Origin: Spirochaetota bacterium
Lineage (GTDB): Bacteria; Spirochaetota; Spirochaetia; Treponematales; Rectinemataceae
DNA: 64,000 bases
Assembly (NCBI GenBank): GCA_029265615.1
Contig: JAJUIB010000006.1
Coordinates: 62,001-126,000, forward strand
Reading direction: 5' to 3'
Made by a program: the position numbers and the translations under genes. Positions within the stretch are counted from its first letter, which is position 1. Every line of letters starts with the position of its first letter. Positions 15,228 through 52,508 of the stretch are shown one piece after another. Below the pieces are notes generated by a model, which saw nothing but the letters and a program-made list of their open reading frames with translations, was not told the origin of the DNA and did not search any database.

Positions 15228-15253
15228 GCCTCCTCCCCCTCGGCTTTTGCAGG

Positions 15254-15282
15254 ATCATACCCCCTTCTCCTCGAGCGCGCAA
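15254..15282 (-). promoter_or_regulatory. Sigma-70 promoter of the GH5 gene
   Basis: On the minus strand TTGCGC (15277-15282), a 17-base spacer and TATGAT (15254-15259). The 12 bases AGAAGGGGGTAT around the -10 are identical in sequence and position to those in the ferredoxin-AOR promoter at 48178-48206. Confidence 0.6.
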
Positions 15283-15362
15283 CGCACTCGAGGCCGCGCG
15301 CATAGCCCCGCCACGCACGAGGCGACCGCGGATGGAAGCTGGCGCGACGGGCCCAGGCTTGG

Positions 15363-15368
15363 TATACT
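15363..15368 (+). promoter_or_regulatory. Probable -10 box of the ODP-MCP operon
   Basis: TATACT precedes the ODP start by about 20 bases, followed by GGAGG at 15381-15385. The -35 region is weak. Confidence 0.4.
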
Positions 15369-15389
15369 AAACCTACACACGGAGGCATG

Positions 15390-16166
15390 ATGATCGATTC
15401 CGGCGACATGAACGGCAAGGTGCTCTTCGACGACGGCGAGCACAAGTTCGTATGGCTCGGCACCGATGCCGACTACCGGCGCGGCGTCGTGCAGACAATG
15501 CAGTACCTCATCATCGACAAGGGGCGGGGCTGGCTCCTCGATCCGGGCGGGGTGCACCTCTTTTCCCGCGTTGTCGCAAGCGCAAGCCGACTTGTGCCGC
15601 TTGACCGCATCGAAGGCATCTTTTTCTCGCATCAGGATCCTGACGTCTCCTCGGGCATCGCGCTCTGGCTCGGGGTGACGCCCGCAAAAATCTACATCTC
15701 AGAACTCTGGACGAGGTTCCTCCCCCACTTCGGCATCGTCGACGCATCCCGTGTGGTGCCAATCGAATCGCTCGGCAAAGGCGTTTCGCTCGGCTCGGGC
15801 GCCCGGCTCGCCTTCGTCCCCACACACTTCATGCACTCGCCCGGCGCCTTCTCGCTGTTTGACGAGCGCTCGCGCATCCTCTTTTCGGGCGACGTAGGCG
15901 CCGCCATATTCCCCGAGGGGGAGGAGCGGCTCTTCATCGACGACTTTGAACTGGCACGCCCCCATCTTGAAGGCTTCCATCGCCGCATCATCGCCTCGAA
16001 CGCGGTTGCGCGCCGCTGGTCGGAGAGTGTGAGCCGCCTTTCCCCTGCGATGATCGCGCCTCAGCACGGCGGAGTCTTCCGTGACAAGGCGGTGCGCGAT
16101 TTTCTTTCCTGGCTCGGCGGCCTTCGCTGCGGTGTCGATCTTCTCGACGAGCTCTACAAAGCCTAA
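15390..16166 (+). CDS. Oxygen-binding di-iron protein (ODP), metallo-beta-lactamase fold
   Basis: A 258-aa protein of the FprA-like metallo-beta-lactamase fold without a flavodoxin domain. The di-iron ligand set is visible: H81-x-D83-P-D85 in SHQDPDVSS, H146 in PTHFMHSPG, D168 in SGDVGAA and H226 in PQHGG. This is the layout of Treponema denticola ODP, which binds iron and oxygen and signals to chemotaxis through a neighbouring receptor. The next gene, 12 bases on, is a soluble chemoreceptor, which supports the same role here. Start: ATG 15390 rather than 15387 for spacing from GGAGG. Confidence 0.85.
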   Translation: MIDSGDMNGKVLFDDGEHKFVWLGTDADYRRGVVQTMQYLIIDKGRGWLLDPGGVHLFSRVVASASRLVPLDRIEGIFFSHQDPDVSSGIALWLGVTPAKIYISELWTRFLPHFGIVDASRVVPIESLGKGVSLGSGARLAFVPTHFMHSPGAFSLFDERSRILFSGDVGAAIFPEGEERLFIDDFELARPHLEGFHRRIIASNAVARRWSESVSRLSPAMIAPQHGGVFRDKAVRDFLSWLGGLRCGVDLLDELYKA

Positions 16167-16178
16167 GGGGGCAAGATC

Positions 16179-17051
16179 GTGACCGATACCGAAAGCGGCT
16201 TCGGGCCGATCCCGGAGGCCAACTACCGCGGCGCCATCGATAGACTCGCCGCGGGCTACAACAAGGGCGTCGTTCTCGCCGCGGTGACCAATCGCTCCCT
16301 CTCCATCCTCGACGCCGCCGTGGGCGAGGCGGAGGGCGCGCTTTCCTCCATCGTCGCGGCCTTCGAGGAGATCCGCGCGACGAGCCAGAGCACCGCGGAA
16401 AACGCATCGCGCATCGACGCGATGATGAACGAACTCCTTGCCAAAAACTCACGCACCGACGCGGACGTCGCCTCGCGGGTCAAGGAAATCGAAGAGGCCG
16501 CCGCGGACGCGCGGCGCATCGCCGCGCTCTTTGGCGAACTTCGCGAAAAAACGCGGAGCATCGAGGAAGTGACCGGCTCGATCCGCGACGTCTCCGACCG
16601 CACCAACATTCTCGCGATCAACGCCTCCATCGAGGCGGCGCGCGCGGGCGCCGTGGGCAAGGGCTTCCGCATTATCGCGAACGAGGTGCGGGCACTTTCA
16701 GGGCGCACCGGCGAATTCGCAAAGCAGATCGAGGAAACCACCGGTGAATTCCGTGCCTCCGTCGCGGCGATCGACGAGCGCATGAAGGGCTTTCTCGAGC
16801 TCCTCGAGCGCTTCAAGGCCTCGTTCTCCGAGGTGCTCGCGAATTTCCAAGAGAGCGCGGCGAGCGTGGAGCGCACAGGTAGCGCCCTTGCCGAGATATC
16901 GGGTGCCATCCGCGAGGAAAATCTGGCCCTCAACGAAGGGCTTAACTCCCTTGAACGGATATCGGGCAACATGAAGGACACGCACGCCGTCTTCGACGCC
17001 CTCACAAAGAGCCACGCCTTCCTCGACGACCTTCTCGAAAAGCGATCGTGA
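16179..17051 (+). CDS. Soluble methyl-accepting chemotaxis protein, ODP partner
   Basis: A 290-aa protein with no signal peptide or TM helix and almost nothing but the coiled-coil signalling domain. The hairpin tip reads SDRTNILAINASIEAARAG, followed by GKGFRIIANEVRALSGRT. There is no sensor domain, so input must come from a partner, most likely the adjacent ODP. The GTG start lies 12 bases after ODP with an AAGGGGG ribosome site. Its TGA stop overlaps the next gene (GTGA), implying translational coupling to the dehydrogenase. Confidence 0.88.
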   Translation: MTDTESGFGPIPEANYRGAIDRLAAGYNKGVVLAAVTNRSLSILDAAVGEAEGALSSIVAAFEEIRATSQSTAENASRIDAMMNELLAKNSRTDADVASRVKEIEEAAADARRIAALFGELREKTRSIEEVTGSIRDVSDRTNILAINASIEAARAGAVGKGFRIIANEVRALSGRTGEFAKQIEETTGEFRASVAAIDERMKGFLELLERFKASFSEVLANFQESAASVERTGSALAEISGAIREENLALNEGLNSLERISGNMKDTHAVFDALTKSHAFLDDLLEKRS

Positions 17052-18076
17052 CCGCCCTGCCTTTCCACGGCGACTCAGGCGGCGCCCGCCCGAACGGCGT
17101 CCTCGCCGTCATCACCGACGACCGTTTTGGTGATGCAGGTAGCGTCGAAAGGCCGATACTCGAGGCGGCCGGCGTCCGCCTCGAGGTGGCGCGATGCACG
17201 AACTCGGTCGAGGTCGCCGCGGCCTGCCGCGTGGCCGACGCCGTCCTTACGAACCTTGCCCCCCTCGATGCCGCCGCGATCGGGGCGATGGAGCGCTGCG
17301 TCGTCATCGCGCGCTATGGCGTTGGGCTCGACTCCGTCGATTGTGCTCAGGCGGCGGCGCGCGGCATCGCGGTGCGCAACGTGCCGGGCTACTGCGACGC
17401 GGAGGTCGCCGAACACTCACTCGGCCTCATCCTCGCCCTCGCCCGCCGCATACCCGAACGCGACGCCGCGATACGCGTAGGCCGCTGGGACGTAAGCGCG
17501 CCGAACAGGCGTGTCGCGGGCTCGACGCTGGGCATTCTCGGCTTTGGCGGCACCGGCAGAGCCCTCGCACGCGCGGCGCTCGGCCTCGGCCTTCGCGCCC
17601 TCATCGTGTACAGCCCCCACCTCACGCGCGAGCGCCTCGATGCGGGCGTCGGCGGACCATGGGCGGCGGCGGCTCGGGGCGCGGGGCTCGAACTCGAGGC
17701 GGTTTCTTTCGAGGAGCTCCTTTGCCGCGCAGACTGGCTCTCGCTCCACGCGCCGCTCACGGCTACGACACGGGGCATGATCGACGAAGCCGCCCTTGCA
17801 CGCATGAAACCCGGGGCCTGCCTCATAAACACGGCGCGCGGCGGCCTCGTCGACGAAGCTGCGCTTGCGGCGGCGCTCGCCTCAGGCAGGCTCGGCGGCG
17901 CGGGACTCGATGTCTTCGCCGAGGAACCACTACAGGCGGATAGTCCATTACGCAGGCTCCCCAACGTCGTCTTCTCGGACCACGCCGCCTACGCCTCCAC
18001 CGAGTCCATTGCGGAACTGAGACGGCGGACCGCGGAAAACGCGCTCGAGGAACTAAAAAAAGCGGGGAGGGTGTAA
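17048..18076 (+). CDS. D-2-hydroxyacid dehydrogenase (CtBP/phosphoglycerate-dehydrogenase-like)
   Basis: A 342-aa NAD(P)-dependent dehydrogenase. The Rossmann motif GFGGTGRALARAALG is near residue 160, and the catalytic Arg, Glu and His are in NTARGG, FAEEPL and SDHAAYAS. The sequence fits the C-terminal-binding-protein-like branch; substrate unknown. GTG start overlaps the MCP stop, making it the third gene of the ODP operon. Such an enzyme is not a known part of the ODP chemotaxis module, so a redox or metabolic link is only inferred. Confidence 0.85.
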   Translation: MTALPFHGDSGGARPNGVLAVITDDRFGDAGSVERPILEAAGVRLEVARCTNSVEVAAACRVADAVLTNLAPLDAAAIGAMERCVVIARYGVGLDSVDCAQAAARGIAVRNVPGYCDAEVAEHSLGLILALARRIPERDAAIRVGRWDVSAPNRRVAGSTLGILGFGGTGRALARAALGLGLRALIVYSPHLTRERLDAGVGGPWAAAARGAGLELEAVSFEELLCRADWLSLHAPLTATTRGMIDEAALARMKPGACLINTARGGLVDEAALAAALASGRLGGAGLDVFAEEPLQADSPLRRLPNVVFSDHAAYASTESIAELRRRTAENALEELKKAGRV

Positions 18077-18083
18077 GAAGGGG

Positions 18084-18102
18084 GCGCCGCACCTAGCGGC
18101 GC
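18084..18102. terminator. Short hairpin between convergent genes
   Basis: GCGCCGC and GCGGCGC pair across a 5-base loop between the dehydrogenase stop and the stop of the CBM48-type gene, overlapping the latter. No T-tract; weak terminator candidate. Confidence 0.35.
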
Positions 18103-18830
18103 GCGGTACTCGTATCCGCCTCGCCGACGCGCAGGACCGAGACGACACGGCCTTCGGCGTTTGTCGCGCGCTCAACGTTGAGCGGATCCGCGAGATACTC
18201 GCCGCGGACGACGAAGGCGTAGCGGTGCACCCCGGGGGGAAGCGGCAAAGCGAGTTCGTAGACCCCCGGCGCCGTCTCGCAAAGCTCATGGAGAAACGGG
18301 TCCCAGTTGTTAAAGTCGCCCGCCACCGTGACAATTTCGCCCGGACGCCCCTTCCACAAAAAGCGCGCCGTGCGCCCTGCGGCGTCGAGATGGGAATAGA
18401 GGCCGAGCCGTTCATCCGACACATAGGGCACCTCGACGAGCGACAGTGCAAGGCCCGTTTCGCGCCCCGTCGCGCGGCGGGGGTTCACAGGGTCGGGAAC
18501 CCATGCGCCATCGATGATGAGGCGGTACGCAAGGAGGGCGCGCTGTTTAAGCGGAAGGGGGAGCGCGAGCACAAAAACCCCTTCCTTGTTGCGCTCGAAT
18601 GCGTGAATTTTCGCAAAGCCTTCGAACTCGAACGCCGCGCCGACAAAGCGGTAGCCGCCTTTCGCGGAAAAGATGAGGTAGTCACCCCAGACAAAGGGAG
18701 GTTCCGCCTCAGTCTTACCCGCAAGGATGAGGTGAAGCGGTAGCGACTCGATCTCGAACGCGCCAAGCGCCCTTGGCATGGCGAGGAGTAGCGTCGCCAT
18801 CAGTATGGAACAGATATGCCAGCGCTTCAT
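18093..18830 (-). CDS. Secreted protein with two AMPK-type glycogen-binding (CBM48/E-set) domains
   Basis: A 245-aa protein with a signal peptide (about 1-23). The second half carries RFLWKGRPGEIVTVAGDFNNWD followed by LPPGVHRYAFVVRGEYLADP, the typical AMPK-beta/CBM48 pattern. The first half repeats a looser version (FVGAAFEFEGF ... LLAYRLIIDGAWVPDP). No catalytic domain is present. Such proteins recur in treponemes; their ligand and role are unknown. Divergent from the large TPR gene. Confidence 0.75.
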   Translation of the reverse strand: MKRWHICSILMATLLLAMPRALGAFEIESLPLHLILAGKTEAEPPFVWGDYLIFSAKGGYRFVGAAFEFEGFAKIHAFERNKEGVFVLALPLPLKQRALLAYRLIIDGAWVPDPVNPRRATGRETGLALSLVEVPYVSDERLGLYSHLDAAGRTARFLWKGRPGEIVTVAGDFNNWDPFLHELCETAPGVYELALPLPPGVHRYAFVVRGEYLADPLNVERATNAEGRVVSVLRVGEADTSTARR

Positions 18831-18891
18831 AGTGTTTCTTCGCCGTTTGAATATCGGCCCTGCGCCATGTCCGCTTGAAGCAATTTCCTAT

Positions 18892-18907
18892 ACAAACACG
18901 CGTTTGT
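18892..18907. promoter_or_regulatory. Inverted repeat in the divergent CBM48 / TPR intergenic region
   Basis: ACAAAC-ACGC-GTTTGT sits mid-way in the 101-base divergent gap (18831-18931). Its position between two start codons suits a shared operator. TTAATATAAG at 18912-18921 could be a -10 for the TPR gene. Confidence 0.35.
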
Positions 18908-18931
18908 TCCGTTAATATAAGTCGGGTAGTT

Positions 18932-21900
18932 ATGCCGCGCCTCCAGGATGTCGAACGATTTAAGCGCGATCTCGCGTCCCTCTCGCGGGAATCGGAAGTC
19001 CTCGCCCGATGGGGTGAAGAACGCGAAGAGGCGACTGCGCCCGCGGACGCTGTCGTCGAACCGGAGCGCCCCGCCTCTCCTCCGCACACTGAGGCGCCGC
19101 GAGGTCTTGCCGCTCGCGCCGCACGCCTCCGCGCCTCGCCGCCCCCCGCGGAGGCGCCCGGCGAAGAGAGTGTTCCGCCCGATTTTGCCCAGCTACTCGC
19201 CGATCTCCCCCTCGACGAAGCGGAAAAGGAAGCGGAGCCCCTCGTCGCAGACGAAAGCGAAGAACCCGCCTCCACTCCCGAACCCCTAGTCGAAGAAGGC
19301 GAAGCCCAGGACCTCTCACCGCTTGACGACTTCGATCTTGCGGCATTCGCCAGTCTCGAAGAACCGCAAGAGCCCGACACTGCGGCCGCAAGCCTTCCCC
19401 AAGACAGCTTCCCGGAGGCGATGCAGCCCGAAGCGGTCTTCGAGGAATCGCTTCTTGAGCCCACTCAGGAAGAAGCCCCCCCCGCTGCCACAGCCGCCCA
19501 GACTGAGGCAGCCGAGGATTTTTCCCTACCCGACGTGGAACAGTTCGCGCTTGATGAAGCGCAGAGCCCACGCGAGGCCGCCGAAATCCCAGAGGATAAA
19601 GCCGCGCCCGAGGATGCAGGCTTCTCCCTCGACGAATTCTCCATACCCGACTTTGGCGAGGAAGCGGCGGCAGGCGACATGACCGCTAGCTCAGAAGCCT
19701 TAGAGACGTTCTCCGATACGGAGAACGCCCCGGAGCCCGAACCAGCCCTGTCGGAAGCAGAAGCCGGTTTTGGCGAGGGCGAAGGCCTTGACCTTGGCGG
19801 CGAAGGCTTCGCCCTCGCGGGTGAAGCTCCCGCGCCCCTTAAGTCTCCATCCTTTTCGATACCCGAAACGGGATCGGGCACCGCCGGCATACCTGAGATT
19901 GACGCATTCGACTCATTCGACTTCGGCGAGGGCGCGACCTCTTTCGGCGAGCTCGACGGCGAAAACCTGGACCGCGAACTCGCCGCCTTGAGCGAGGAGG
20001 CGGCTCCCGCCACCACGTTCAAGCTCGACGAAACCTGGGGCGCTGACTTCGAAATGCCCGGCGAGGACAAGGCGGCTCAGGCGCGCCGTGCACCGCCGCC
20101 ACCTCGTGCCGCACGAGCCCCCGGCCCCTCCCGCCCAGCGCCCGCGGAAGAACGCGTCCGACCCGTCGAACTCAGCGAAGCGCAGGTCGACCGCCTCCAG
20201 GATCGCCTCCTCGCCCTGCCGCTCAATCTCCGCATCGCCGTCGAAGAGTCTCTCGCCGAAGAGCGCGGCACCGAAGCCCAACGCTCGCGGCTTGTCTGGA
20301 TGCTCGTCGAGGGTGCCGCGCTCGAGGACATCGCCCTCCTTGCGGGTCGCATCCTCGAGCGGCGCATATCGATACCCAAGGGCTACGAAAAAAGCACAGG
20401 CGCCGCGCTTGAGGCGGAGCGCGGAACCTTCCGCTACGCCTTCACCCACACCATTCTCCCCCTCGTCCGAACGATCCTCCTCGCGCTTGTGGGGGCGGCG
20501 GCGCTCGGCTGGCTCGGCTGGCGGTTCATCTACCGCCCCCTTTCGGCCAACGTGCTCTACCGCTCCGGCTACGCACGCATCGCGGAAGACCGCTTTACGG
20601 AGTCGGAGGCCGCTTTCGCAAAAGCGTCAAAAATCCAGGACTATCCCTCGTGGTACTACCGCTATGCGGAGGCATATGCATCGCGCCGCCAGTACATCCT
20701 CGCGGAACGCAAGTATGAGACGCTCGTCACGCGGTATCCGCGCGAGATCAAGGGCGCCCTCGCCTGGGCAGCGCTCGAGAAGGAGCAGCTCAAATACCGC
20801 GAGGCGGTAGACATCCTCACGCGGCGAATTCTCGAACGTGTATACTACCAGAAAGACGCGCTTCTCCTTCTCGGCGACGTCTATCTCGCCTGGGCCGAAG
20901 AGGAGCCCAAGTACTACGAAGAAGCCCGGCTCGCCTATGCGACGCTCATGGAACGCTACGGCCCGAAGGACGAATACGCCGAGCGCATGCTTCTCTATTT
21001 CATCCGCGTCGACAAGCTCGCCGAGGTCCGGCCGCTCAAGGAGCGGTTCATGGCCGCGGACAAACCCTTCCCCACGGCGGCCACCCTTGCGGAACTCGGC
21101 GCATACCTTTTCGACAAGGGCGACAGGGAAGATGTGCACCGCATCCTCATGGCCGCTCAAAAAAAGGATCCCTCGCTTCCCGAAGCGCACTATCATCTTG
21201 CCCGCTATTTCGCAGCGACCGGCGCACCCGCAGAGGAGCGAAAGGCCCTCGACAAGGCTATAGCCGCCTACGAGCGGATGCCCGCTCTCTCCTCTAAGCG
21301 CCTTGCATTCCGCATCGATGCCCTCCTTAGGCGCGGCGAAAACCGCCTCGGCGACGCGCTTGCGCTCGTCAAGGCCGGCCGCCTCGGAGAAACCGAATTC
21401 AGCGCCGCGGAGAAAGACTTCTCGGCCGCCGCCGCACTCTACGAAGAGGCGCTTGGGCTCGGCCGCCTCGCGCGAACACCGCGCTTCGCCGAGGCCTATG
21501 TCGGGCTCGCCGAAGCCGCCTACTGGCGGAATGGCGACTTCGACGCTGCACTGCCGCTCTTCGAGCGAGCCGCGACTCACGGCTTCGACAGCCAGCGCGT
21601 CCGCTATGAACGAGGCTACATCCTCTACCAGAAAGGCCGTTTTGCCGAGGCCCTCGACCAGTTCTACCACGCCGGGCTACTCGGCGAGGCGAGCCCCTAC
21701 CTCGATTACGCATTCGGTTGCGCGCTGTACGCCCGCGCCGATTACCATGCGGCGGAGGGCTATTTCCGCAAAGTCGTCGGCGCGATGAACGTCGAACTCG
21801 AGCGCCTTGACCAGCCCGATCCGCAGGGCAGGGCGTCGCACGGGGAGATCGTCGAGCTTCTTATGCTCGCAGAAAACAACCTCGGCGCCGCCCTCTATCG

Positions 21901-22132
21901 GGTTGCCAACCGCCTCGGCGATCCGGCCCGACGCGCCAGCGCCATGGCCTCCTTCACCGAGTCGGCCCGCCTCTTCGACGCGCTTGAACGGGATCAGACC
22001 ACCATGGTGCGCCCCGAAACCAAAAACCTCGCCTTTCTCAACATCTACTATGTGCTTCACCCAACACGGGGCATCGATATCGAGGCGTACCGCAAAATTC
22101 CGATGACGATGGTCTATCCGCGAACGAGGTAG
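18932..22132 (+). CDS. Large one-TM TPR protein, FlcA-like (periplasmic flagellar collar)
   Basis: About 1066 aa. N-terminal 30 residues (PRLQDVERFKRDLASLSRESEVLARWGE) are followed by ~370 residues of acidic Glu/Pro/Ala-rich low complexity. A small folded region follows (VELSEAQVDRLQDRLLALPLNLRIAVEESL ... ISIPKGYEKS), one TM helix (about 505-530) and then ~530 residues of TPR-like repeats. This order, and the ending block with NNLGAALYRVANRLGD and LNIYYVLHP, resembles spirochaete FlcA (Borrelia BB0326), which assembles the collar of periplasmic flagella and the stator. I cannot align it, so the name is not assigned as a symbol. ATG 18932 is chosen over a TTG at 18875. Confidence 0.6.
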   Translation: MPRLQDVERFKRDLASLSRESEVLARWGEEREEATAPADAVVEPERPASPPHTEAPRGLAARAARLRASPPPAEAPGEESVPPDFAQLLADLPLDEAEKEAEPLVADESEEPASTPEPLVEEGEAQDLSPLDDFDLAAFASLEEPQEPDTAAASLPQDSFPEAMQPEAVFEESLLEPTQEEAPPAATAAQTEAAEDFSLPDVEQFALDEAQSPREAAEIPEDKAAPEDAGFSLDEFSIPDFGEEAAAGDMTASSEALETFSDTENAPEPEPALSEAEAGFGEGEGLDLGGEGFALAGEAPAPLKSPSFSIPETGSGTAGIPEIDAFDSFDFGEGATSFGELDGENLDRELAALSEEAAPATTFKLDETWGADFEMPGEDKAAQARRAPPPPRAARAPGPSRPAPAEERVRPVELSEAQVDRLQDRLLALPLNLRIAVEESLAEERGTEAQRSRLVWMLVEGAALEDIALLAGRILERRISIPKGYEKSTGAALEAERGTFRYAFTHTILPLVRTILLALVGAAALGWLGWRFIYRPLSANVLYRSGYARIAEDRFTESEAAFAKASKIQDYPSWYYRYAEAYASRRQYILAERKYETLVTRYPREIKGALAWAALEKEQLKYREAVDILTRRILERVYYQKDALLLLGDVYLAWAEEEPKYYEEARLAYATLMERYGPKDEYAERMLLYFIRVDKLAEVRPLKERFMAADKPFPTAATLAELGAYLFDKGDREDVHRILMAAQKKDPSLPEAHYHLARYFAATGAPAEERKALDKAIAAYERMPALSSKRLAFRIDALLRRGENRLGDALALVKAGRLGETEFSAAEKDFSAAAALYEEALGLGRLARTPRFAEAYVGLAEAAYWRNGDFDAALPLFERAATHGFDSQRVRYERGYILYQKGRFAEALDQFYHAGLLGEASPYLDYAFGCALYARADYHAAEGYFRKVVGAMNVELERLDQPDPQGRASHGEIVELLMLAENNLGAALYRVANRLGDPARRASAMASFTESARLFDALERDQTTMVRPETKNLAFLNIYYVLHPTRGIDIEAYRKIPMTMVYPRTR

Positions 22133-36906: not shown

Positions 36907-38457
36907 ATGAACCAGACTCTCGACACGATCCGCAACACCACCCTCACCTACCGGCAAAAAGTCCTCGCCCTCGCACGGGCGGGCGAAGAACGAACCCAGC
37001 CCCTCGCCATAGCGCCCGAGGTTCAGGCGCTACGCGACGCCGGCGTCGTCTGCGATCTAAACGAGGGCCCCGCCCCTTACCGCCCCCGGTATGTGCTCCC
37101 GGACTACGCGCGCTTCCTCGACCAGGGCTCGGCGTTTTTGCGTCAGGAACCGCCCCGCGACCTTCTCGGGGCGGTGTTCGCCCTCCTCGGTCTTTATCGG
37201 CACATTCCCTCGATCACGGGTTATCCGGTATGGGTCGGCGATCTTGACGCCCTCCTCGAGCCCTTTGTCCAACGTGATCCTGCGGCACTCGGCCCCGGCG
37301 GCGAACTCTCCCCCGCGGCGGAGCGGCTCGTCAGCCTCTTCCTCGAGGGCATCGACCGCGACAACCCGGATTCGTTTTGCCACGGGGATCTCGGCCCCGA
37401 TACCACCGCGGTCGGCCGCGCCATTCTCCGCCACCAGCGCAGTGCGGGCCGCGCGGTACCAAACCTCACGCTCCGCTACGATCCAGCACGCACGCCTGAA
37501 GACTTCGCTGAAGCGGCGGCGCTCTGCGCCCTCGACGCGGCCAAGCCCTCGTTCGCGAACGATCCGCTGTTCCGCGCGGAATTCGAATCCCTCGGCCTTG
37601 CACCCTACGCCATTGCAAGTTGCTATAACGGCCTCCCCGTCGGCGGCGGATCCTGCACCCTCGTGCGGCTCAATCTTGCGCGCCTCGCCTGCACCGCAGC
37701 GCACACACTCGGCGATCCCGAGGCATTTATCAACGGCCCCCTCGCCGAAGCGGTCGCCGCCACCCTCGCCTACATCGACGAACGCGTGCGCTTCCTTGTC
37801 GAGGAATCGGGCTTCTTCGAATCATCATTCCTGGTCCGCGAGGGTCTCATCGCCAAGGAACGCTTCACGGCTATGTTCGGCATCGTCGGTCTTGCGGAGC
37901 TTGCGAACGCACTCGCGAATGCCGAACCGGGCTCGCGCGAACGCTTCGGCCGCGGTGGCGCAGCCGATACGCTCGGCGCCCGCGTCCTTGCGGCGATCGA
38001 CCGCCTTGTCACTGCCCACCGCTCGCCGTACCTTGAGGCGGCGGGTGGCCGCTACCTCCTTCACGCCCAGGTCGGCATCGACTCCGACCGCGGCGTCTCG
38101 CCCGGCTGCCGTGTACCCATCGGCGAGGAACCGCCCCTCCACGAACACCTTGCGCGCCAGGCTCCGCTCCAGACCCCCTTCATCGCAGGCTCGGGTGACG
38201 TCTTCGCCTTCGAACCCACCGCTCGCGCGAACCCCGGACATATCGTCGACGCGATGAAAGGCTTCTTCGCCTCGGGCGGCCGTTATTTTTCCTGCTATGC
38301 GGCCGACTCCGATCTTGTGCGCGTCACGGGATACCTCGTCAAACGTTCGGAGGTTGAGCGGCTCAGACGGGGTGAGGCGGTGAACAACGGCGCAACGGTT
38401 TTGGGCATGGGCGCCTTCGACAACCTCGGCGTCCTCGACCGCGCAGTGCGGCGATGA
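36907..38457 (+). CDS. yjjI: YjjI-family glycyl radical enzyme
   Basis: A 516-aa member of the glycyl radical family, matching the compact YjjI group (DUF3029). The likely active-site Cys is C238 in ASCYNGLPVGGGSC, and the radical Gly is G475 in LVRVTGYLVKR close to the C-terminus. Substrate is unknown for the group. Start ATG 36907 follows AAGGAG. The stop overlaps the yjjW start (ATGA), so enzyme and activase are coupled. Oxygen-sensitive chemistry fits an anaerobe. Confidence 0.9.
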   Translation: MNQTLDTIRNTTLTYRQKVLALARAGEERTQPLAIAPEVQALRDAGVVCDLNEGPAPYRPRYVLPDYARFLDQGSAFLRQEPPRDLLGAVFALLGLYRHIPSITGYPVWVGDLDALLEPFVQRDPAALGPGGELSPAAERLVSLFLEGIDRDNPDSFCHGDLGPDTTAVGRAILRHQRSAGRAVPNLTLRYDPARTPEDFAEAAALCALDAAKPSFANDPLFRAEFESLGLAPYAIASCYNGLPVGGGSCTLVRLNLARLACTAAHTLGDPEAFINGPLAEAVAATLAYIDERVRFLVEESGFFESSFLVREGLIAKERFTAMFGIVGLAELANALANAEPGSRERFGRGGAADTLGARVLAAIDRLVTAHRSPYLEAAGGRYLLHAQVGIDSDRGVSPGCRVPIGEEPPLHEHLARQAPLQTPFIAGSGDVFAFEPTARANPGHIVDAMKGFFASGGRYFSCYAADSDLVRVTGYLVKRSEVERLRRGEAVNNGATVLGMGAFDNLGVLDRAVRR

Positions 38458-39398
38458 GCGGCCTCAAGGAGCACGGGGAGGCGCTCGGACTCCTTGCGCG
38501 TATCCTCCCCTTCAGCGCAGTCGACGGACCGGGAAATCGCGCCGTCTTCTTCCTCCAGGGTTGCAACTTCGACTGTGCCTACTGCCACAACCCGGAAACC
38601 CGCGCTGCCTGCACAGGCTGCGGCGCATGTATTCCCGCCTGTCCCGCCGGTGCGCTCTCGCCCATGGAGAGGCGCGGTGCGCGCACCATCCCCGTCCAGT
38701 GGGATCGCGCACGGTGCCGCGATTGCGGCGCATGCGCTGCCTCCTGTCCGAGTGGAAGTTCACCGCGCGCCCGTCTTGTCACGCCCACCGAGGCCCTGGA
38801 CGAAATCGCAAGCGCCCGTCCCTTTCTCCGGGGGATCACCGTCTCTGGGGGCGAATGCACGCTCCAATCCGACTTTCTCGTAGCCCTCCTTAAAGGCGCG
38901 CGAAACCTCGGCCTCCCAGGCCTTGTCGACACAAACGGAGGACGGCCTCTTGCGGCCGAGCCGCGCCTCCTTGAGGCGGCGGAGGGCTTTATGCTCGATG
39001 TAAAGGCATGGAACGAGGACGAGCACCGCAGACTCACGGGCGCGGACAATGGGCCCGTTCGTGACAATCTCGCATTCCTCGCCGCACGCGGCGCCCTCTA
39101 CGAGGTGCGCACTGTGATAACCCTGCGCGCGCCCGGCTTCAACGCAAAGCCTGCGGAGAGCGACACCACGAGCGACGATCCTCAAGAAGGCGCCTTCGAT
39201 CTCGAGGAGACTGTGCGCGAAACCGCCTTAACCCTCGCTCGGGCAGGCTCTCGCGCGCGCTACCGCCTCATCCGCTACCGCCCCTACGGCGTGCGCCATG
39301 AACGCGCGGCACTGCTCCGCGAGCCGGGAAGCGCACTCATGGCGCGGCTTACGGAACTCGCGCGGCGCGGAGGCGCCGCGGAGGTCATCGTCTCTTAG
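38454..39398 (+). CDS. yjjW: YjjW-family glycyl radical enzyme activase (radical SAM)
   Basis: A 314-aa radical SAM protein that would install the glycyl radical on YjjI. The SAM cluster motif is C37-x3-C41-x2-C44 (GCNFDCAYCHN). An inserted ferredoxin-like module carries CTGCGACIPACP and CRDCGACAASCP, as in other activases. GGECTLQ near residue 128 is the SAM-binding GGE motif. Ends overlap the convergent MFS gene by four bases. Confidence 0.92.
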   Translation: MSGLKEHGEALGLLARILPFSAVDGPGNRAVFFLQGCNFDCAYCHNPETRAACTGCGACIPACPAGALSPMERRGARTIPVQWDRARCRDCGACAASCPSGSSPRARLVTPTEALDEIASARPFLRGITVSGGECTLQSDFLVALLKGARNLGLPGLVDTNGGRPLAAEPRLLEAAEGFMLDVKAWNEDEHRRLTGADNGPVRDNLAFLAARGALYEVRTVITLRAPGFNAKPAESDTTSDDPQEGAFDLEETVRETALTLARAGSRARYRLIRYRPYGVRHERAALLREPGSALMARLTELARRGGAAEVIVS

Positions 39399-48258: not shown

Positions 48259-50199
48259 TCAAGGCGCGGCGAAGGGGAAGCGCACCTCAACCTGCGTACC
48301 TTTCTCTGAGCCATAAAAGCGCACCGTGCCGCGAAGCTGTGCAACAAGGCCCTGGATAAGACTCCCCCCGATCCCCTCGCCTCCGCCGCTCCGCCGTGGG
48401 GGCATTGCAGGATCCGCGCTTGCAGGGAGCCCCACGCCGTCATCCTCGACCCGGAGGACGCAGTCCGCGCCCTCGCGGCGCAGACTCAGACACACGCGCC
48501 CCGTGCTTCGCCCTACAAAGGCGTGCTTCACCGCATTGGCGACCAGCTCGTTCGCAATGAGGCCGCAGGGCATGGCGCGGTCAAGGCCAAGCCGGAGGCC
48601 CTCCCCCCGCAGGCTGACGTCGATCGAACAAACGCGAGGACCGCCATCCGGGCCATAACAGTAACCGCAAAGCGACTCAGCGATCCGCCCAAGGTAGTGA
48701 TCCATATCCACTGCCTCGAAGCTGCCCGACTGGTAGACATCCTCGTGAACAAAGGCCATCGCCTGGATGCGCTCCTGGAGCCGCTCGTAGCCCTCGCCTG
48801 CCGCGGGATCCTGCACCTCGCCGGCCTGGAGCCGCGCTAGGCTCGACACGATCTGCATATTGTTTTTCACCCGGTGGTGCACTTCTCGGAGGAGCACTTC
48901 CTTTTCCGCAAGCGAGTGTTCAAGGTCGGCGACATACCGATCAAGCCGCTGTGCAAGCGCCGCGAAGGAGCGGGCAAGGCGGCCGATTTCATCGGGCCGG
49001 TCGGCGAGCGCTCCGGTCTGCTGGCCAAGCGACTCCGCCCCGCCGGGGATATAGGCACCCAGGGCGGCGCCAAGCATGCGTAGCGGCAGCGTCACTCGGT
49101 GGGCCGTGAAAAAGGCGAGCGCAATGCTCGCGGCGAGCATGAGCCCAAGGACATGGGCGGCGATCCGATCGGTTCTCTTAAGCGGAGCGACAAAACCCGC
49201 TTCAGGCAGGGCGAGCACGAGGCGCCACGCGAGCCCGAGGCGCCCCCCGAGCGGGATGACGACGGAGCGAAAGGCTTCACCGGCCGACACCACCCGGACG
49301 GCGCGGCCTGACTCGCGGGAGGCGGCGGTCACGAGCGCCTGAGTCGTTTGCGGCAGATCACGCAGGCAGAGTCGTTGCGGATCCGCTGCGGCCGCGGGCG
49401 GGACGGCGACCGACTCCGTCCCGGATGGAGTGTTTGTCCGCGCTCTCGTAGCGGAAGTGAGTGCGACAAGGCAATCCGATTCGTCCAGGATGAGTGCCCG
49501 GGCACCGGGCTCCGCGGCAACGCGCTCAAGAAACCCGGAGATGCTCCCAAGGCGGACAGTGGCGCTGGCGACACCAAGAACGCGCCCTCCCTCCCGGGCG
49601 GCGGCCACGGCCGCCATCGCAAGCTCGCCCGACGACGCGATCGCGTAGGGGGCCGTCCACGCCGCAGACGCCGAAGCGACGGCGCGCCGATACCAGGGCC
49701 GCTCGCGGGGGTCGTAATGCTCACGCCGCAGCTCGACTGCAACAGGGTTCCCCTCCTCGTCGACGCGCTCAAGGACGAGAGCGCCGCCAGAGTGCAGGCC
49801 GGCACTCCCCGTGCGGAGCCGCCCGTCGGCAAGCCGTTCCGCCTCGGCGTATGCGCCATCGGCGAAGCCCACGCTCACGATGTCGATTTCGGGTCGCTCG
49901 AGTAGTTGAAAGTGGAGCGCCCGGCGGAGAGCGGGGAGCTCGCTAGCAGCGTTCGGGAAGGCGCGCACAAAGGCGACATTGGTCTCGGCGACATCAAGTG
50001 CGCGTTCGAGAAAGGCCTCGACGCGTTCGGCGGCGCGCTCGGCGGACGAAAGGGCATAGGCGTCGACAACGGAGAGGACCGCCTTCCGCGAGCTTGTCAC
50101 ATAGAGAAGCCAGCTCGCGCCAAAGCCCGCCACAAGAAGAATGATGAAGGGCACAAGGAGGGTCCGCTTCATACCGCCGCGGCCGAAGAGCCAGCGCAT
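48259..50199 (-). CDS. Membrane sensor histidine kinase (dCache-like sensor, HAMP, HisKA_2)
   Basis: About 646 aa: TM ~10-30, a large periplasmic double-Cache-like region (~35-330, with HYDPRERPWYRRAV, a typical Cache motif), second TM ~345, HAMP, then REVHHRVKNNMQIVSSL (His about 440) and HATPase (NELVANAVKHAFVG, EDDGVGLP). Start uncertain: ATG 50199 is used, ATG 50172 and a GTG upstream are alternatives, and none has a clear ribosome site. It follows an MCP gene in the same direction after 116 bases. No adjacent response regulator. Confidence 0.85.
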   Translation of the reverse strand: MRWLFGRGGMKRTLLVPFIILLVAGFGASWLLYVTSSRKAVLSVVDAYALSSAERAAERVEAFLERALDVAETNVAFVRAFPNAASELPALRRALHFQLLERPEIDIVSVGFADGAYAEAERLADGRLRTGSAGLHSGGALVLERVDEEGNPVAVELRREHYDPRERPWYRRAVASASAAWTAPYAIASSGELAMAAVAAAREGGRVLGVASATVRLGSISGFLERVAAEPGARALILDESDCLVALTSATRARTNTPSGTESVAVPPAAAADPQRLCLRDLPQTTQALVTAASRESGRAVRVVSAGEAFRSVVIPLGGRLGLAWRLVLALPEAGFVAPLKRTDRIAAHVLGLMLAASIALAFFTAHRVTLPLRMLGAALGAYIPGGAESLGQQTGALADRPDEIGRLARSFAALAQRLDRYVADLEHSLAEKEVLLREVHHRVKNNMQIVSSLARLQAGEVQDPAAGEGYERLQERIQAMAFVHEDVYQSGSFEAVDMDHYLGRIAESLCGYCYGPDGGPRVCSIDVSLRGEGLRLGLDRAMPCGLIANELVANAVKHAFVGRSTGRVCLSLRREGADCVLRVEDDGVGLPASADPAMPPRRSGGGEGIGGSLIQGLVAQLRGTVRFYGSEKGTQVEVRFPFAAP

Positions 50200-50315
50200 C
50201 GCGCCGCGCAGGCCCTGCCGAGAAAAGACACTATCTTTCACGCGGAAAGTATACGTGATTTTTACCCTTTGTGTCCGGGAAAATGCGCCCGACCTCGCCT
50301 GCACACGGCCATGCG

Positions 50316-52508
50316 CTATACGGTGAAGCGGCCGATCGCCTCCTCCATGGCAAGGATACTGTCATGCGTTTTAGTCGCAAGCTCGGACACGGCCTGCGCG
50401 GCCTTGTGGATCTCTCCGGCACCGGCGGCCATCTCGTCCATGCTCCCCTCGATCGTCGCCGCAAGTTCGGAGAGCCGCCGCATCGCCTCGAGCACCTGGG
50501 CGTTGCCCGCGCGCATTTCGCTCGAACCGGCGCGCACCTCGCTCGTCGCACCGTTCATGTCGCGGAGCGCCTCGAGAATCTGCCGTGAGCCCTCCTTCTG
50601 CTCGAGCATCGCACGCTCAATTTCACGAACGAGGTCCGCCGTCGCGGAAATCGATGCCGCCACCTCGGCGAAGGAGGAGCCCGAGGCCTTCGAGGCCTCC
50701 ACCACTTCGGCGATCGAAGCGCCGATCTTTTTGAGCTCGGCGCCGATGTTCCGCGACTGGGCCGCGCTCGTCTCGGCAAGGCTGCGTATTTCGTCCGCGA
50801 CCACCGAAAAGCCCCGCCCCGCATCGCCAGCATGCGCCGCCTCGATGGCCGCATTCATCGCCAGAAGGTTTGTCTGCGAGGCGATTTTTGCGATGATGCG
50901 GTTTGCCTCCATGAGGAGCTCCGACTGCTCGGCGATCTCCCGGGCCTTGTCTTCGACCGCAGTCTGCTTGGCCTTTCCGGCCTCGGAGGCCTCGCGGAGC
51001 GATTCGAAGCGGTCGGCCATCTTCTCGATCGATGCGGTGACCGAGCCGATGTTGCCCACCATCTCCTCGATAGAGGCGGAGGCCTCGGTAACGCCCGCGG
51101 CCTGGGTCTCCACGAGCTTGTCGAGCGACTCGATGTTGCGCGCTGTCTCTTCGACCGCACTCGAAGCGTCGCCGACACTCTCCGCCTGACGTTCCGCCTG
51201 CTTTCGCACTCCCTCGACATTGGCGAGAATCTCCGCCGCCGCACTCGCCGCCTCGTGCGAACTCGCCGCAAGATCGCTCCCTATGCTGCCGAGTGCCTCC
51301 TGCGAGGTTTTGAGACTCGAGACAATCTCACGGAGCTTGCCAACAAATCCGTTGAAATCCCGCACAAGATCGCCGATCTCGTCGTTCCGGGACAGATCGA
51401 TCCGCCGCGTGAGGTCGCCGCCGCCCTCGGCGATCGCGCGGATCGCGGAACCCGCCATCGACAGTGGGCGGAGGGCGCGGCCGATGAGCACCCAGATCGA
51501 CACAGAGAGCGCGACTAGGATGATAAGCGAGCTTGCGACGATAAAGACGGTGACCCGCGCGGCCGAGGCGAGGATTGCCTCGACGGGGATCGATATGCAA
51601 AGGCTCCAGTAATCGTCGCTCTTCCCAAGCCGAATCGGGTGCGAGACAAGGTAGCTCACACGGCCATCGACCGCCGAGCGGCGGGTGAGCGTGCGATGCT
51701 CACCACGCGAGACCGCGGCAAGAAAGTCATCGCGAACCGCTGGCTCAAGGAATTCGCCGACCGGCCTGCCGATAAAATCACTTCGCGGATGAGCGAGTAT
51801 CTCGCCCCGACGGTCGAGGAGAAAGGCGTAGCCAAAATCCATGGGCTTTATGAGGGCAATGAGGCGCTGGAGGGCGCTTACCTCGATGTCGACCCCCGCG
51901 ACGCCAATGACCCGCTCGCCGAGGATGATGGGCTCGACGGCTGAAATCGTGGTCAGCGCCTTCCCCGCGACTGTGAATGTTTTGGGCTTCGTAAAAAACG
52001 GCTTTTTTGTCGCTCGGGGAACGGTGTAGAAATCGCCTTCGGGCTTCCCTGTTTCATAAGCGAGCGCGGTATCGAGGACGAGCTCGCCGCCCTCGCGGCT
52101 CCACAGGGGATTCAGCCTGCCCTCGGGGCCGTAGCCTTTGCGTCCCGCATAGGATGCATCCTTTCCGTCGTAGGCGCCGGGTTCAAAGGCGCACCAGAGC
52201 GCGGAAAGCGCAGGCGTTCGTTCAAGGACGAGCGAAAAGGTCTCCACGAGGTTCTCTCGCGACACCCCCGCCTCCTTGAAGGACAAAGCCGTCGTCGCCA
52301 GACTCGAGGCATAGATCGAGGCATCGCCCACAAGACGCTCCACGTCGCGGCCATAGTTCTCCGCAAGGTATTCGGTAGAGGTGTAGGCGACCTTCCGGAG
52401 GGCCTCGCGGGACTGCGCGGCAACGAGGAGCGAGAGTACGCCAAGGCAGAGAATTTGGATGCCGCCGAGCATCGCGATAAGTTTGCCGCGCAGTCCGAGC
52501 CGCTTCAT
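50316..52508 (-). CDS. Methyl-accepting chemotaxis protein with dCache sensor
   Basis: A 730-aa transmembrane chemoreceptor: TM1 ~10-32, periplasmic dCache domain ~35-300 ([28 protein letters not shown]), TM2 ~305-330, HAMP ([10 protein letters not shown]), and the signalling coiled coil with tip [19 protein letters not shown] followed by [19 protein letters not shown] 52508 is fixed by AAGGAGG. Ligand unknown. Confidence 0.93.

Follow-up and report, generated by a model that had tools for sequence, protein, structure and literature searches.

The window, by which we mean the whole stretch of 64,000 nt analysed here, comes from a Spirochaetota bacterium of the Rectinemataceae (assembly GCA_029265615.1, contig JAJUIB010000006.1, positions 62,001-126,000 of the forward strand). 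CheA dimerisation domains are found in three proteins of its genome (2.70 Mb, 99.9% complete), and a chemotaxis system is therefore present to feed into. Between positions 15390 and 18076, genes for an oxygen-binding di-iron protein (ODP), a sensorless methyl-accepting chemotaxis protein (MCP) and a dehydrogenase form one tight plus-strand run. This three-gene run had been proposed from the sequence before (the original prediction), and is borne out both by the gene calls, made by codon-scored ORF calling in GC-rich DNA with long antisense ORFs, and by domain matches:

15228..15389, no strand: divergent intergenic region between the minus-strand GH5 glycosidase gene and odp (gene calls)
15390..16166, plus strand: odp, oxygen-binding di-iron protein (PF19583, 6qnm match, kept ligand set)
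16179..17051, plus strand: sensorless, membrane-free MCP, predicted ODP partner of the TDE2496 type (MCPsignal)
17048..17051, plus strand: GTGA overlap of the MCP stop (TGA 17049-17051) with the dehydrogenase start (GTG 17048) (sequence)
17048..18076, plus strand: D-2-hydroxyacid dehydrogenase (PF02826/PF00389, residue table, structure model)

Twelve bases separate the ODP stop from the start of the MCP gene, and the dehydrogenase GTG indeed overlaps the MCP stop, as had been described. Judging from this gap and this overlap, sensor and dehydrogenase would share one transcript, and translation of the dehydrogenase may be coupled to that of the MCP. The operon promoter probably lies in the intergenic region at 15228..15389; a sigma-70 consensus scan of the three-gene region, this interval included, returned no site anywhere (0.3 expected). 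Downstream of the dehydrogenase, the terminator search found a strong stem at about 18084-18102 that has no T-run and a z of only -1.07. Genes for a CBM48/AMPK-type glycogen-binding protein and a large TPR protein occupy 18093-22132, a block that adjoins the dehydrogenase in many relatives, whether ODP is present or absent.

The 259-residue product of the first gene scores 229.7 bits against Pfam PF19583 (cut-off 27.2), and its best solved relatives are 6qnm, a T. denticola-type ODP (E 1e-111), and 6qrq. The match to 6qnm is full-length, and the domain stands alone: the flavodoxin part that flavodiiron proteins have is missing. All six di-iron ligands originally listed, H81, D83, D85, H146, D168 and H226 (H-x-D-x-D ... 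H ... D ... H; numbered from the ATG at 15390, one higher if counted from 15387), are present, and in an alignment of 40 orthologues five of them are invariant and D85 is replaced by N in one. The first ATG of the frame lies at 15387; since relatives begin at the residue encoded by 15390, the latter is the better start, in agreement with the original prediction. By curated cut-off, ligand set and stand-alone domain, the protein is predicted to belong to the ODP family and, by homology to its T. denticola counterpart, would bind O2 at the di-iron site. A second, weak ODP-family match in the same genome, within a 464-residue frame (G000:C21:7754-8350), is probably a flavodiiron protein.

The second product matches MCPsignal with 82.7 bits at residues 116-259. 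It was said to have neither a transmembrane segment nor a sensor domain, and both halves of that statement stand: the profile search found no sensor domain above cut-off, and the highest 19-residue Kyte-Doolittle mean is only 1.35, so that no membrane helix is expected. Domain, membrane, sensor and neighbourhood properties together mark it as a putative TDE2496-type sensorless ODP partner. In T. denticola, the ODP TDE2498 pairs with TDE2496, a receptor that lacks membrane and sensing modules, is able to modulate CheA and is incorporated in the membrane array (PMC7666581); the precedent invoked for the pairing is thus genuine. The window pair shares with TDE2498/TDE2496 the di-iron family, the ligands and a sensorless, membrane-free receptor directly downstream, and from its sequence we take it to be of this ordinary, already known kind. 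By analogy, ODP would act through the MCP within the chemoreceptor array and thereby change CheA activity. Elsewhere in the window (48259-52508, minus strand), a membrane HisKA_2 kinase gene adjoins one for a membrane MCP, and both proteins have dCache-type sensor regions.

How faithfully do ODP and its receptor keep company? Of 294 genomes of the same order, which appears to be Treponematales because Gracilinema, T. putidum and T. lecithinolyticum are represented among its ODP loci, 52 contain ODP; a receptor gene lies directly behind it in 51 of these, the exception being G049, whose contig breaks off within ODP. Whenever ODP is lost in this order, the MCP is lost too. In named genomes, scanned separately, ODP loci turned up among Spirochaetota, Aquificales, Thermotogota, and Thermodesulfovibrio with its relatives, and almost all of them had an MCP gene immediately downstream. 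Inheritance of ODP follows family lines. In one MAG that is 72% complete (G088), the receptor gene is seemingly broken into two frames (L067:2500-3311), by a frameshift or an assembly error.

What, then, is the third gene? Its product carries both 2-Hacid_dh_C and 2-Hacid_dh (PF02826/PF00389), a Rossmann GxGxxG motif and the catalytic residues R264, E293 and H312, that is, the two Pfam domains, the glycine motif and the Arg/Glu/His triad by which D-2-hydroxyacid dehydrogenases are recognised. The two-domain fold, GxGxxG and R/E/H triad are common to it and to the solved enzymes 1wwk (phosphoglycerate dehydrogenase), 5tx7 (Desulfovibrio) and 2dbq (glyoxylate reductase), whereas the window enzyme has Ser for their beta-2 Asp, and Asp rather than Pro before the catalytic His. 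Its earlier description as CtBP-like holds at the level of the fold and fails by sequence profile. CtBP1/CtBP2 are the best structural matches of the model (pLDDT 87.6), Foldseek placing CtBP2 first with many other members of the 2-hydroxyacid dehydrogenase family tied, and some orthologues have an HxAWYS-like motif. Yet identity to CtBP1/CtBP2 is about 32%, and the profile ranking of solved relatives (1wwk, 265 bits; 5tx7, 239; CtBP2, 200) rules out CtBP as the closest relative by that measure, P. horikoshii phosphoglycerate dehydrogenase, Desulfovibrio 5tx7 and glyoxylate reductases all scoring higher. The NCBI equivalog search reached no cut-off, its best match being PRK06487 with 207 of 448 bits. 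In the orthologues of the two families that will concern us most (f1 and f4), a Ser (residue 189 here) stands at the end of beta-2, in a W/Y/H-S-P/R motif, where NAD-dependent members have Asp; in the f5 and f2 orthologues this Asp is retained. An Asp-to-Ser change at this Rossmann position usually relaxes NAD preference towards NADPH. With Ser in place of the usual NAD-selecting Asp in the whole clade, the original choice of NADH as cofactor is doubtful; the enzyme probably prefers NADPH, and is probably a 2-keto-acid reductase of the glyoxylate/hydroxypyruvate kind.

At a threshold of E <= 1e-60, 35 of the 294 genomes have a dehydrogenase orthologue: it is next to the pair in 15, without any ODP in 18, and together with an ODP elsewhere in the genome in two (G025 and G053). 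The linked copies belong to family f1 (G000, G001, G004, G005, G008, G015) and family f4 (G038, G040, G058, G061, G067, G073, G084, G088, G094); the G001 locus is divided between the ends of two contigs, and the G094 contig stops short of ODP. A 16th linked copy (G046, L077) lies 73 bases behind the receptor and is diverged, but falls within the dehydrogenase clade as sister to G040; it evolves very fast (37% identity, long branch) and has possibly changed function. The arrangement is therefore not confined to this one genome, the outcome that would have counted against the original prediction, but spans two families. In 13 of these 15 genomes the receptor and dehydrogenase genes overlap (-4 or -1); in the other two the dehydrogenase starts 3 (G004) and 18 (G088) bases past the receptor stop. 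A single GTG/TGA overlap means little, since 82 of 411 same-strand neighbours in these loci (20%) overlap by -4 or -1; its recurrence in 13 of 15 is well above this background, though the genomes are related. A search of the open literature for this dehydrogenase with ODP or with spirochaete chemoreceptors returned nothing relevant, and the conserved, clade-specific arrangement is apparently new, being undescribed in the literature searched.

Wherever an f1/f4 genome has pair and dehydrogenase, the junction between them is retained, while the gene downstream of the dehydrogenase varies, possibly reflecting selection for joint expression. Perhaps, then, the enzyme is a co-regulated metabolic effector, wanted whenever oxygen is sensed without touching the signalling proteins, for example for re-oxidation of NADPH or clearing of glyoxylate-like 2-keto acids under microoxic conditions. 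That none of the 16 genomes of f1 and f4 with both parts has broken the junction, although downstream neighbours changed, would fit such a role, as would the situation in the f4 genus g26 (L068, L069), where genes for a YjjI-type glycyl radical enzyme and its activase follow just behind the three genes. Glycyl radical enzymes are a class inactivated by oxygen, so that in g26 the genes of an oxygen sensor adjoin that of an oxygen-sensitive enzyme. (The window has its own YjjI-type glycyl radical enzyme and radical-SAM activase, at 36907-39398.) However, operon neighbours generally stay together whatever their function, 11 of the 18 genomes with the dehydrogenase and no ODP fall within f1 and f4 themselves, and four genomes keep ODP-MCP without the dehydrogenase. 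We regard this explanation as unlikely, albeit the strongest competitor to the one preferred below.

In G017, the GH5 gene, the dehydrogenase and the CBM48 gene follow one another in the order and orientation of the window with the pair missing; in G027, G032 and G070 the same pair is missing from a series of hydrolase gene, dehydrogenase, CBM48 and TPR gene. Conversely, G043 and G080 have the pair without the dehydrogenase between the same flanks, and G035 and G064 complete the set of related pair-only genomes. In the dehydrogenase tree, linked and ODP-less genomes interleave within one clade, requiring nine changes, at least six of them forced by well-supported branches; the idea that linked and ODP-free enzymes are different subfamilies is thereby ruled out. 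The simplest account of this tree is that the dehydrogenase gene was placed downstream of the MCP gene a single time, before f1 and f4 diverged, and that later lineages repeatedly lost the pair in one piece while retaining the enzyme. The R/E/H triad is complete in every orthologue, ODP present or absent.

Other lineages fill the slot behind the receptor differently. In Breznakiellaceae (f5), a gene for an unknown protein of about 460 residues comes next, often overlapping the receptor stop (-1), and then NIF3 and lspA. That protein (L090:5726-7108, L081:5466-6848, L043 and others) falls into two clusters, c26 and c42, of which neither has a Pfam match and c26 has no NCBIfam match. The T. denticola group has an unknown protein, UDG (family 4) and PriA where the window has the dehydrogenase, and the T. 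lecithinolyticum group a spiro-SPASM protein gene. The slot is thus promiscuous. Kin of the dehydrogenase, for their part, lie away from ODP in f5, beside HAD, CorA and Sua5 genes, and in G299 and G340 beside TRAP transporter, GntR, SDR and aldo-keto reductase (AKR) genes.

These neighbourhoods bear on the functional element of the original prediction, a redox enzyme that feeds into or follows the oxygen response. Could the dehydrogenase itself take part in signalling, either by informing the MCP of NAD(P)H or a 2-keto acid or by acting on the array? The conserved overlap with the MCP gene speaks for it, as does the fold match to CtBP, itself an NAD(H)-responsive regulator. Yet enzyme and pair are separable in both directions, unrelated genes share the same coupled slot, relatives elsewhere in the phylum sit by transporter, regulator, reductase or housekeeping genes, and the catalytic residues are fully retained, as expected of an enzyme. 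With the dehydrogenase outliving loss of the pair, the proposal is left unsupported, and a signalling partnership seems to us improbable.

We consider it probable instead that the first two genes encode a standard ODP-MCP oxygen sensor and the third a self-standing metabolic companion, which shares the transcript without forming part of the sensor. Presence and loss of ODP and MCP coincide, but the dehydrogenase does not follow them, its triad stays intact regardless of ODP, and unrelated genes fill the slot in other families; the retained junction and the excess of overlaps over background count against this reading. Being separable from the pair, the dehydrogenase would work in metabolism rather than in the array. 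Least probable of the readings discussed, in our view, is that the receptor unit of these families recruited a dehydrogenase that modulates the ODP-MCP signal according to the state of its cofactor or substrate, so that chemotaxis would respond to oxygen and redox state jointly; should the enzyme act on the receptor after all, an unusual direct link would connect central redox metabolism with chemotaxis. A signalling link should not be read from gene overlap: across the whole order, ODP and MCP behave as an inseparable two-gene unit, while the third gene, though tightly coupled, is separable.
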